DNA of 64,000 nt from Pseudanabaena sp. FACHB-2040. GTDB lineage: Bacteria; Cyanobacteriota; Cyanobacteriia; Phormidesmidales; Phormidesmidaceae. Shown here piece after piece: positions 12,546 to 40,209 of the stretch (within the stretch, counting starts at the first letter, position 1; each line of letters opens with the position of its first letter). The translations under genes were made by a program, and so were the position numbers. The notes below the pieces were generated by a model. It was given only the letters and a program-made list of their open reading frames with translations. It did no database searches and was not told where the DNA came from. The stretch is taken from the NCBI RefSeq assembly GCF_014696715.1, contig NZ_JACJQO010000005.1:744001-808000 (forward strand), written 5' to 3'.

Positions 12546-13769
12546 TTACTGGGCGGGGCCAATGGCGGCAACGGCAGCTTCTAATGCGATCGCAACATGG
12601 CTCCAATGAGTACCGCCCTGGCAGTAGACGATGTAAGGCTCTCGCAGGGGGCCATCGGCAGACAACTCAGAGGTGCTACCATCAATGAAAGTACCGCCTG
12701 CCATCACCAGCTCACTCTCGTACCCCGGCATTCCCGCTGGTACTGGTTCTACATAGGAGTCTATGGGAGAGTGTCGCTGCACCGCCTTACAAAAGGCAAC
12801 TAGCTTTTTTGGTGTGCCCAGCCGTACGGCTTGAATTACGTCCCGCTGAGGTGCGTCCATCGGAGGATTGACGGCATAGCCCAAATCATGGAAGGTAGAG
12901 GCAATCAAATAGTTGCCCTTCATGGCCTCTCCGACCATCTGAGGCGCTAGGAAGAAACCTTGGAAAAACAGTCGGTTCTGATTTAGCGTAGCGCCGCCGC
13001 TGCTGCCAATGCCAGGGGCAGTTAAACGGCAAGTAGCGGCCTCTACCAGATCGGCCCGTCCGGCCACATAGCCACCCGTTGTCGCAATTGTGCCGCCAGG
13101 GTTTTTAATCAGCGATCCGGCTATAAGATCGGCTCCTACCGCTGTTGGTTCGCGATCTTCTACAAATTCTCCGTAGCAGTTGTCTACAAAGCAGACGGTA
13201 TCAGGATTTTGCTGCTTCACCAAAGCCACAATTTTTTCAATCTCGGCAATTGTCAGGCTAGGCCGCCAACTATAGCCACAGGATCGCTGGATCAGCACCA
13301 GCCGGGTGTCAGGACGTACAGCAGTTGCCAGCGCGGCCCAGTCTATCGTACCGGTGGCGGTCAGCTCCAACTGGCGATAGCGAATGCCAAACTCCTTGAG
13401 CGATCCTTGCCCTGTCTCCCGCAGGCCGATGACTTCTTCCATAGTGTCGTAAGGAGCCCCGGCTACGGCCAGCATCTCATCGCCGGGTCGCAGCACGCCA
13501 AAGAGAGCACATGCGATCGCATGCGTACCCGAGACAAACTGCACCCTTACCGCTGCAGCCTCGGCCTCCATAACCGCCGCAAACACCTGATCGAGCGTCT
13601 GCCGCCCCAAGTCACCATGCCCGTAGCCCGAAACCCCCGAGAAATGGTGGCTACCGACCCGAAACTGGCGAAAAGCCGCCAGCACCCGCTCCAAATTTTT
13701 CTTGACCTGGAGGTCAATTCCATAAAAAATCTGAGATAGTGTCTGTTCTGATAAATTAAGTGTTTTCAA
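12546..13769 (-). CDS. PLP-dependent methionine gamma-lyase/aluminium-resistance family protein
   Basis: A 407-residue fold-type I PLP enzyme of the family often named aluminium resistance protein. Visible family features are HHFSGVSGYGHGDLGR near the N-terminus, the cofactor-ring segment VQFVSGTHAIACALFG, CFVDNCYGEF with the PLP-contacting Asp, and SLIKNPGGTIATTGGY carrying the Schiff-base lysine. The true substrate is uncertain; a C-S lyase role is a family-based guess. A HIP1 site lies inside the gene. Confidence 0.85.
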   Translation of the reverse strand: MKTLNLSEQTLSQIFYGIDLQVKKNLERVLAAFRQFRVGSHHFSGVSGYGHGDLGRQTLDQVFAAVMEAEAAAVRVQFVSGTHAIACALFGVLRPGDEMLAVAGAPYDTMEEVIGLRETGQGSLKEFGIRYRQLELTATGTIDWAALATAVRPDTRLVLIQRSCGYSWRPSLTIAEIEKIVALVKQQNPDTVCFVDNCYGEFVEDREPTAVGADLIAGSLIKNPGGTIATTGGYVAGRADLVEAATCRLTAPGIGSSGGATLNQNRLFFQGFFLAPQMVGEAMKGNYLIASTFHDLGYAVNPPMDAPQRDVIQAVRLGTPKKLVAFCKAVQRHSPIDSYVEPVPAGMPGYESELVMAGGTFIDGSTSELSADGPLREPYIVYCQGGTHWSHVAIALEAAVAAIGPAQ

Positions 13770-16757: not shown

Positions 16758-16829
16758 AGCGGGTAACGCGATTCGAACGCGCGACATTCACCTTGGCAAG
16801 GTGACGCTCTACCACTGAGCTATACCCGC
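16758..16829 (-). tRNA. tRNA-Gly(GCC), first copy
   Basis: The minus strand folds as a complete 72-base cloverleaf: acceptor GCGGGTA pairs with TACCCGC, the D-loop AGCTCAGTGGTAGAGC, anticodon stem-loop with GCC, and T-arm GCGCGTTCGAATCGCGT. The CCA end is not encoded. An identical copy lies 1.1 kb downstream. Confidence 0.97.
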
Positions 16830-17891: not shown

Positions 17892-17963
17892 AGCGGGTAA
17901 CGCGATTCGAACGCGCGACATTCACCTTGGCAAGGTGACGCTCTACCACTGAGCTATACCCGC
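17892..17963 (-). tRNA. tRNA-Gly(GCC), second copy
   Basis: Identical over all 72 bases to the tRNA at 16758-16829, with the same GCC anticodon. A shared aaaa precedes the discriminator-side end in both; flanks otherwise differ. Confidence 0.97.
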
Positions 17964-28175: not shown

Positions 28176-29054
28176 ATGTTTCAAAGGGCGTTGATCTGCA
28201 CCGATTTTTCGGACGGAGTGTACCGGCTGGCTCAATTCGTGCCGAGCTTAGCTGCGGGAGGCTTTCGCCAACTCGTCTTTTTTCACAATTTGTCTGTCGA
28301 AAGAGGACGTGAAATTCCTAGGAGTAACCCCGAGCAGGTTGAAACTACGCGAAAGCAGCTGACAGACTTACTGCGAGACGTGCCTGCAGAGGTAAACGTT
28401 AAGGTTGAGGTGCAGGTCGGACGCGCCAGCGACAACATTCTCCGACTAGCCAAAACAACCAAGTCTGATGTCATCATTCTGGGAACGCCAACGCGCACTC
28501 TGCTAGAGGAAAAGCTTTTTGGCAGCACCACTATGCAGATGGCCGAGCGAACTGAGGTTCCCTTGCTAATTTTGCGGCCTCAGCTTATTTCTACCTACAC
28601 CACTGAAGAGCTAGATCTTCGCTGTCGCCACCTCTTTCGCTATCTGCTGATTCCCTACGAGGGCAGCGCGGGGGGTGACTATCTGCTTCAGCAGATTAAG
28701 CAACAGGTGCAGTCTAACCCCCATTCGGTATTGGAACGGATACGCTTGCTCTGGGTGGTCGACGACAGCGTGCGCCGGGAGTTGCGTGGCGACCAGCCCA
28801 AGCAAGCTGCCCAGGCCAAACTTGAGCAGGTTCAGAAGGATTTAGCAGCTCTAGATTTGGTGGTCAATACCTCAGTTGTGGAGGGAGATCCTCTGCAGGA
28901 GATTTTGGCGGCGGCTGAGACCCACGATATTGGCGCGATCGCAACCTGTTCGCGCAATCTGGGCGGCGTGATGAAATGGACTGTGCCCAGCGTAACGCGG
29001 GAACTGGTGCGAAATTCCTGGCATCCACTGCTGTTTTATCCCTCAGCGCGGTAG
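28176..29054 (+). CDS. Universal stress protein with two UspA-like domains
   Basis: A 292-residue double UspA domain protein. The first domain begins RALICTDFSDGVYRLAQ and ends with the nucleotide loop ILGTPTRTLLEEKLFGST-TMQM (G-x2-G-x9-GS/T type). The second starts HLFRYLLIPYEGSAGGD and ends IATCSRNLGGVMKWTV, with a weaker loop. Start at 28176 places the first beta-strand at the N-terminus; an upstream Met at 28128 would add 16 residues. UspA-type proteins bind ATP or act in stress survival; no precise role is known here. Confidence 0.85.
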   Translation: MFQRALICTDFSDGVYRLAQFVPSLAAGGFRQLVFFHNLSVERGREIPRSNPEQVETTRKQLTDLLRDVPAEVNVKVEVQVGRASDNILRLAKTTKSDVIILGTPTRTLLEEKLFGSTTMQMAERTEVPLLILRPQLISTYTTEELDLRCRHLFRYLLIPYEGSAGGDYLLQQIKQQVQSNPHSVLERIRLLWVVDDSVRRELRGDQPKQAAQAKLEQVQKDLAALDLVVNTSVVEGDPLQEILAAAETHDIGAIATCSRNLGGVMKWTVPSVTRELVRNSWHPLLFYPSAR

Positions 29055-29104
29055 GAATACGGCTGTTGAGACCGTTTCTTAGCTTTGCTAGCCCCAGCTC
29101 AGCC

Positions 29105-29359
29105 CTACTCAGACAAATCCGAGCCCGTGTCTACATAAATAGACTCTAGCTGCCGCAGTACCTTAGGCTTGAGCTTTTCATTGAGCTCGTTGCGGAGGAG
29201 GTCTTTGCTGATATTAGCGCCGCCCAAAGACGGTTGCGATCGCGCTGTCAAAATCCAATCCTTCAACAGCGTTTTTTGAGGAGTGGCCACTCTACAAGTC
29301 AGCACGTGGGCACACCGTTGAGGCCCTTCTAAGGCAAACAGCAGCAGCTTGTAGTAGCA
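29105..29359 (-). pseudogene. Displaced C-terminal part of the adjacent Ser/Thr kinase
   Basis: From 29359 to the TAG at 29105 a frame encodes 84 residues starting CYYKLLLFALEGPQRCAHVL and continuing TCRVATPQKTLLKDWI. This continues the C-terminal domain of the kinase gene but in the next frame. Removing one base near 29361 (GAAATGC to GAATGC) would fuse them as GQE-CYYKLL. Translation could alternatively start at a GTG near 29305. Confidence 0.7.
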
Positions 29360-30623
29360 TTTCCTGACCAGCAGGCGTTTTTAAGTCCAGGTAGCAGGGC
29401 AGCCAGCGGGGACCGTGGCTGCTGCTGTAGAGTACGGTTAGCCACAGCACCATTGGGTGAGGTGACAGCGTACAGATGAAGGTGTTGTAGCGGGTACTGA
29501 TTAGCCTGCGCTCGATTTCAAGCTGAGGCATCATAGCCCACAGGGTTGGCAGAGATCCCTTGCTCATGGGCAGAGCACAGGGGAAGACAATTTCTGCTGT
29601 GGGCTTGCCTTTGGGCCAAACTGACAACCGGCAAACCTGATCCTCCTGCAGCTCCGTTTTGGGTTCAACGCTGGTGGTAACTGGCAGGCGCGACAGCGTG
29701 GCGCTAATGCGTTGGCCAATGCGAAAGCCTGCGACGAATCGATCTTCTAGGGGCTCTAGCGATCGCAAAATCTCTTCCACGGTCTGAGGTCGGTTATCGG
29801 GCTGCTTCTCCAGGCAGCTCATTACCAGATCCTCCAGCAGTTTGGGGACCTTTAACGACGGGTCTAATTCACTAATAGGCTTAGGTAGTTGAGATTGATG
29901 AACTCTATACCAGCCGCCAAAGGTATTGTTGCTGGCCCGCAGAGGCAGCTTACCGGTAAGCATTTGAAACATCAGAATGCCCAGGCTGTAGATATCGCTG
30001 CGGCTATCCAGTTCTAGGCCCTCCATCTGCTCCGGCGAAGCATAGGCCAACGTACCCATAAAACAGTTGGTCTGATCCCCACCACTCTGCATGAGTTTGG
30101 CGATGCCAAAGTCCAGCACTTTAGCCAGCTCTCCCAAAGAAGGGTCTTGAACAATCAAGATATTGCTGGGCTTAATATCGCGGTGAATAATCGAGACCGG
30201 ATCGGCCTTGCCCTTTAAGATGATGCCCTCATGGGCCGACATCAACCCCAGACAGATCTGTCGGGTCAGACCCAAAAACCGGGGAATAGGCAGCGGCTGA
30301 GAATTGATTAGCTGGCTCAAGCCTTGCCCTCGCAAATACTCCATCACATAGAAAGGGACATTCTCATCATTCACACCGTAATCAGTTACGCGCACCACGT
30401 GAATACTTTTCTGACCCAGCTGGGCACAGGTCATAGCCTCCTGCAGAAAACGATCTCGCATCTTCTCCGTCAGCAGCGTCTGGGAAAGAAACTTAATGGC
30501 GACTTTGACATTTCCCAACAGCGCGTCTTCTGCCAGATATACCTTTCCCATCGATCCCTGACCCAAGGGTTCGATCAGTTCGTATCTATTGCCAAGCTTG
30601 TGATGAAAGTTAGGATCTGGCAT
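29292..30623 (-). CDS. Ser/Thr protein kinase with C-terminal domain, apparently frameshifted
   Basis: A 443-residue Hanks-type kinase with a full catalytic domain (about 12-285): P-loop GQGSMGKVYLAE, VAIKFL, HRDIKPSNIL, DFGIAKLM, ASPEQM and DIYSLGILMFQML. A C-terminal domain of unknown role follows (about 310-425). The last 20 residues (LLQAAAVCLRRASTVCPRADL) look unrelated to such domains, whereas the +1 frame continues sensibly to 29105, so the reading frame is probably broken near 29360. No membrane helix is visible; the kinase core is intact. Confidence 0.85.
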   Translation of the reverse strand: MPDPNFHHKLGNRYELIEPLGQGSMGKVYLAEDALLGNVKVAIKFLSQTLLTEKMRDRFLQEAMTCAQLGQKSIHVVRVTDYGVNDENVPFYVMEYLRGQGLSQLINSQPLPIPRFLGLTRQICLGLMSAHEGIILKGKADPVSIIHRDIKPSNILIVQDPSLGELAKVLDFGIAKLMQSGGDQTNCFMGTLAYASPEQMEGLELDSRSDIYSLGILMFQMLTGKLPLRASNNTFGGWYRVHQSQLPKPISELDPSLKVPKLLEDLVMSCLEKQPDNRPQTVEEILRSLEPLEDRFVAGFRIGQRISATLSRLPVTTSVEPKTELQEDQVCRLSVWPKGKPTAEIVFPCALPMSKGSLPTLWAMMPQLEIERRLISTRYNTFICTLSPHPMVLWLTVLYSSSHGPRWLPCYLDLKTPAGQEMLLQAAAVCLRRASTVCPRADL

Positions 30624-30966
30624 GGGGGGTTCTTAGCAGGTCAGGCAAGGAAACTACAGGTCGTTGACGTAGACGCTATCTCTCTGCAATTGAAACACAG
30701 GCCTAAGACAGATGCCCTAGGTCGCCATTTGAATACGGCATGAAGCGGAGGTTGAAGCCGATCCAAATGACGCCTGAGCAAGCTAGTCGCTTCTCAAACA
30801 AAGTGCACCACGTTTGGGGGGTTCTTGCACCCTAGGTTGTAGAACAGCTTTAAAGACAGCCTAGCACCGTCCTACAAGGCTGCTCAGAGAGAATTCCCCA
30901 TTTGTAGAATTCCCACTGGGAAGAAAACCCTCTCACCTGCTAGCCCAGTCACCTAGAAGTGAGCGT
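30624..30966. other. Intergenic region, nothing recognised
   Basis: About 343 bases between two minus-strand genes. No gene or clear terminator is visible; it holds the upstream region of the kinase gene. Confidence 0.4.
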
Positions 30967-39324: not shown

Positions 39325-40209
39325 ATGGCTGAAGCACAAAACCAGTTTATTGTTCGCTTTTGGGGAGTACGGGGGAGCATTGCCTGTCCCGGGCCGGAGA
39401 CCGTGAGTTACGGCGGCAATACCTCCTGCATCGAAATGTTAATCGGAGGCCACCGTCTGATTTTTGACGGGGGAACTGGCCTGCGGGAATTGGGGCTCTC
39501 GCTGCTGCGGGAGATGCCTCTAGAGGCCAACCTCTTCTTTACCCACTCCCACTGGGATCATATCCAGGGCTTTCCCTTCTTTGTGCCGGCCTTTGTACCG
39601 GGCAATCGGTTTTATATCTATGGTGCGATCGCGCCCAATGGCTCCACCATTGAGCAGCGCCTCAACGACCAAATGCTTCACCCCAACTTTCCGGTGCCGC
39701 TGCAAATCATGGGGGCTGACCTCAAGTTTTGCGACATCGAGATTGGCGAAACCGTCCGAGTCGAAGACATTAAGGTCGAAAATGCCCTGCTCAACCACCC
39801 TGGTGAAGCGGTTGGCTACCGCGTTTCGTGGAACGGCCGAGTAGCTGCTTATGTCACCGACACCGAGCATTTCCCAGACCGGCTAGATGAAAATGTGCTG
39901 TGGCTGGCGCGTGATGCAGACATCATGATCTACGACGCCACCTACACCGACGAGGAATATCACAACGAAAAGTCCAGCAAAGTAGGCTGGGGCCACTCCA
40001 CCTGGCAAGAAGCTGTAAAAGTCGCCAAAGCAGCCAACGTCAAAAAGCTGATTATTTTCCATCACGACCCGATTCACAGCGACGACTTTATGGATCGGGT
40101 GCAGCTAGACACTCAAGCAGTGTTCCCCAACAGCATTGTTGCCCGGGAAGGCATGGAAATTGATTTGATGACGATGGATCAGCCAGCTTACCTTGAGACA
40201 GCTTCGTAG
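39325..40209 (+). CDS. MBL-fold metallo-hydrolase
   Basis: A 294-residue metallo-beta-lactamase fold protein. Zinc ligands are THSHWDHIQGFPFF, NHPGEAVGYR, YVTDTEH and IFHHDP. The start FWGVRGSIACPGPETVSYGG is typical of a widespread cyanobacterial family with no proven substrate; phosphodiesterase-like activity is a family guess. It follows surE after 153 bases, on the same strand. Confidence 0.85.
   Translation: MAEAQNQFIVRFWGVRGSIACPGPETVSYGGNTSCIEMLIGGHRLIFDGGTGLRELGLSLLREMPLEANLFFTHSHWDHIQGFPFFVPAFVPGNRFYIYGAIAPNGSTIEQRLNDQMLHPNFPVPLQIMGADLKFCDIEIGETVRVEDIKVENALLNHPGEAVGYRVSWNGRVAAYVTDTEHFPDRLDENVLWLARDADIMIYDATYTDEEYHNEKSSKVGWGHSTWQEAVKVAKAANVKKLIIFHHDPIHSDDFMDRVQLDTQAVFPNSIVAREGMEIDLMTMDQPAYLETAS

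Follow-up and report, generated by a model that had tools for sequence, protein, structure and literature searches.

Passages of a 2007 survey of cyanobacterial kinases describe a subfamily, cbSTKI-other, whose members have long unidentified C-terminal domains (PMC2176072). A frame-changing mutation in a cyanobacterial kinase gene is described in parts of two other reports, in which a 1-bp insertion in spkA (sll1574/1575) of glucose-tolerant Synechocystis sp. PCC 6803 is linked to the loss of motility (PMC4632739, PMC10068330). Here we analysed a Ser/Thr kinase gene whose reading frame is broken near its 3′ end, located in a 64,000-nucleotide stretch of DNA (the window). Comparison with relatives suggested that 23 nt were recently deleted from the gene, in this lineage or only in the strain, and that its frame was broken in this way, a reading to which we assign a probability of roughly three in four.

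An intact kinase domain followed by a broken frame

The gene lies on the minus strand at 29292–30623, where a 443-aa open reading frame starting from the ATG at 30623 encodes a Hanks-type Ser/Thr kinase with a truncated C-terminal region. Its protein kinase domain (Pfam PF00069; residues 14–286; 29766–30584, minus strand) is intact, scoring 141 bits with the Pfam Pkinase profile against a cut-off of 31.7, and the HRDIKPSN, DFG and SPEQ stretches, which we take to be the catalytic motifs, are invariant between the window protein and nine homologues. The score above the cut-off and the invariant motif columns together place the protein among the Hanks-type Ser/Thr protein kinases. The kinase is present as one copy in the window genome, which gave one match at E 1e-30.

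Near 29357, at about residue 422, the protein departs from its natural frame, so that the full-length form of the family, with a complete C-terminal region in one frame, is lost at this point. What follows is an aberrant, out-of-frame tail of 21 residues (29295–29357, minus strand) that ends at a stop codon at 29292–29294. A sequence-only reading of this DNA had called the Cys/Arg-rich tail unlikely, and these last 21 residues were indeed unlike the homologues seen; inspection by eye of 58 other homologous loci, with several genomes represented twice, found the in-frame tail in none of them. The natural C-terminus resumes in the +1 register, where a frame beginning CYYKLLLFALEGPQRC is open from about 29356 down to the stop at 29105 and comprises 83 codons plus the stop (29105–29356, minus strand), as that reading had also described. 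The openness of this frame is the weaker evidence, because 368 of 20,000 base shuffles of the downstream segment also stayed open; its homology to the C-termini of relatives is the reason why it is not due to chance. The proposal that the frame of a Ser/Thr kinase gene is broken was thus borne out by the 443-aa open reading frame, its unlike tail and the homologous +1 frame.

Neither Pfam nor NCBIfam gave a match of its own to the C-terminal region of the kinase, and Pfam gave none to the C-terminal region of a homologue. The AlphaFold model of a homologue was of low quality, with a mean pLDDT of 54.6 and values below 50 across most of residues 295–512. Phycobilisome-linker repeats and one unrelated protein were returned by a profile search against solved structures (E 0.001–0.44) and were taken as chance matches, in the case of the linkers because every linker stretch scored below 7 bits.

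Spacing between the two parts in related genomes

Relatives were searched with the kinase open reading frame (query P0001) and with the downstream piece (query P0002). Counting the window's own genome, 54 of 59 genomes had a P0001 match with an E-value of at most 1e-30 and 51 of 59 a P0002 match at E 0.001, and a class-wide search with P0002 matched 237 of 388 genomes. Matches of the two queries were paired by contig and strand; every one of the 57 P0002 rows entered the pairing, together with the 56 P0001 rows able to pair, and rows that belonged to other kinases or to pieces far upstream were set aside. A partner was found for 56 P0002 rows including that of the window, and one row, from G058, was left without a partner. 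The sequence-only reading had proposed comparing the C-termini of homologues, and in this comparison the two parts lay in one frame in 55/55 paired homologous loci, all of which follow the frame whose stop in the window is at 29105 rather than the in-frame tail; the window alone was out of frame.

We measured the spacing from residue 422 of P0001 to residue 4 of P0002 and found 27 nt in 51 of the 55 paired loci and 30 nt in one, the spacing being not comparable in three loci where the upstream match stops near residue 320. The corresponding spacing in the window is 4 nt, and therefore 23 nt are missing. The junction lies at 29356–29362 on the minus strand, with a breakpoint that is uncertain by a few bases. 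By eye, the 23-nt segment was present in 58 other loci (several genomes twice), and it includes a Leu that is invariant across eight homologues.

The only other genome of the genus compared, G001 (the sister genome), is also the only close relative among the genomes used, which limits the comparison, and is itself a draft that is 78% complete. Its homologue is spread over two contigs and carries the 23 nt that are absent from the window gene, and its protein reads through the site in one frame. Protein identity to the window was 93% over residues 1–255, 90% over residues 210–425 and 92% in the C-terminus, and at the nucleotide level 747 of 916 positions aligned over the stretch, with all 23 gap positions falling at the junction, where BLAST splits them around one base. 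The sequence-only reading had attributed the break to one extra base. Removing one base from GAAATGC does join the two frames as it had claimed, but the resulting protein is eight residues short of that of the sister genome, and both the sister alignment and the family spacing gave a difference of 23 nt, by which a one-base insertion or a single-base indel error was rejected. It is this family-wide spacing count that distinguishes the loss of a short segment from a slip of one base or from programmed frameshifting, and neither a complete 443-aa kinase nor a one-base error is the right reading of the gene.

Among the class-wide matches listed, open frames shorter than 300 aa besides that of the window were found in G022, G198, G223 and G274. 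The G022 match, at the end of a contig, keeps its frame across the site, and in G198 recognisable homology is lost before the site is reached, no more than about 125 nt from the contig end. In the draft genomes G223 (L088) and G274 (L089) the kinase frame is broken elsewhere, roughly within residues 240–338 in the former and within the first 51 residues in the latter, and the deletion site is in frame in each.

Several other arrangements were observed in passing. Two further genomes have a divided kinase, in both cases with the break far upstream of the site: in G032 (C1:1736579-1739039) about 1.1 kb, perhaps an insertion, separates the pieces, and in G002 (C8:44500-45797) there is a stop and a break near residues 105–118. 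At least five relatives of one genus (G003, G016, G023, G028 and G033) have two neighbouring kinase copies on the same strand. The window itself has a pair of minus-strand tRNA-Gly (gcc) genes, at 16758–16829 and 17892–17963, some 1.1 kb from each other.

Origin and age of the break

A 23-nt deletion would take nearly eight codons out of the C-terminal region of the kinase and, since 23 is not a multiple of three, would put translation into the wrong frame, adding 21 unrelated residues before a stop located 187 nt ahead of the natural one. A frame-breaking change that is absent from relatives, as expected of a pseudogene formed by recent deletion, is what the comparison found. We infer that the living cell carries the deletion and that the product would be a kinase without the C-terminal end, probably impaired in regulation or stability. 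The event is an ordinary recent gene-truncating change, or else an assembly error, and involves no new mechanism.

Assembly error is the first alternative to weigh. On this account the gene is intact in the cell and 23 nt were dropped from the consensus by an assembly or sequencing artefact, which we consider rather unlikely, even though constraint is as strong on the orphaned C-terminus as elsewhere in the protein and the break was seen in this genome only, across the 59-genome search, the paired loci and the class-wide matches listed. We checked the frame of 19 open reading frames of at least 150 aa within 11842–39171 against the sister genome, leaving out 13209–13739, which overlaps another open reading frame, and 39325–40209, of which only the start was covered. 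Net gaps not divisible by three occurred in three of the 19, and in two of these (11843 and 23724) the gaps were traced by hand to the last bases of the open reading frame. The frame was therefore kept in 18 of the 19, with the kinase as the sole exception, and this, together with the fact that a loss of 23 nt is unlike a homopolymer-type error, favours a true deletion over an artefact. The genome is also rated 99.95% complete in 44 contigs. A search of the sister genome for direct repeats spaced 23 nt apart found none, which speaks against an artefact but also leaves a true deletion with no obvious slippage route. A perfect 11-nt inverted repeat (29338–29348 and 29418–29428), located within runs of Ser and Leu codons and also present in the sister genome, flanks the deletion site; we claim no mechanism of deletion, because the missing stretch sits inside the loop of this repeat.

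Selection on the two parts was compared by the NG86 method. Against the sister genome, the 83 orphaned codons had a dN/dS of 0.056, and the 212 upstream codons, limited to residues 211–422 as the part on the same sister contig, had a dN/dS of 0.066; dS was in the range of about 0.85–0.90, at 0.899 downstream and 0.845 upstream. The downstream part had seven amino-acid differences from the sister, most of them at sites that vary among 64 loci (some genomes twice). We therefore consider the deletion to be recent, because the orphaned part shows no decay. As a rough bound, it would be younger than about 8–14% of the window branch, assuming that the orphaned part has been neutral since the deletion and that half of dS falls on the window branch. 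The missing decay is expected equally from an artefact or from continued translation.

It is also conceivable, though quite improbable, that the truncated kinase is a functional variant, with altered control of the intact catalytic domain, that would have been kept by selection in this strain. Still less credible is the narrower proposal that truncation was favoured because a kinase without its C-terminal end would be altered in activity, a change that would resemble the frameshift in spkA. The window protein has a whole catalytic domain, and two reports offer a precedent in which laboratory lineages carry a kinase gene with a frameshift (PMC4632739, PMC10068330), yet the change observed here resembles any recent loss.

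We likewise give very little credence to the C-terminus still being made, whether by programmed or compensatory +1 frameshifting or by translation starting anew from the GTG at 29305. In its favour, purifying selection has acted on the open downstream frame, and this GTG start codon lies within the last part of the upstream frame; however, the two-frame arrangement was found in 0/55 paired loci, a +1 product would retain the shortfall of eight residues, Rfam gave no match within 28900–30900, and the RNA around the site folded no better than shuffled sequences (z +1.16, with 178 of 200 shuffles at least as good). The prfB frameshift site has a stop codon at the junction, whereas the junction here has none. 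A programmed +1 frameshift was therefore rejected on conservation, spacing, Rfam and RNA fold. Among the three causes that the sequence-only reading had offered, a true mutation is the best explanation, a sequencing error survives only as an assembly loss of 23 nt, and programmed slippage is without support.

Comparison with described kinases

If the 23-nt deletion is real, this genome lacks the full-length version of a kinase with a C-terminus found widely across the class (237/388 genomes). From its length and architecture, the kinase was considered as a possible orthologue of SpkC (Slr0599). As passages of the 2007 survey outline the cbSTKI-other subfamily, the kinase resembles its members in having an N-terminal kinase domain, a length of more than 400 aa and a C-terminal region that neither Pfam nor NCBIfam recognises, but it differs from them in that its C-terminal end is cut off (PMC2176072). 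Like spkA, as portrayed in parts of the two reports cited above, it is a Ser/Thr kinase gene that a single lineage has split between two frames and other lineages have whole; unlike spkA, in which the change is a 1-bp insertion, the window gene has a 23-nt deletion, and it may encode a different kinase (PMC4632739, PMC10068330).
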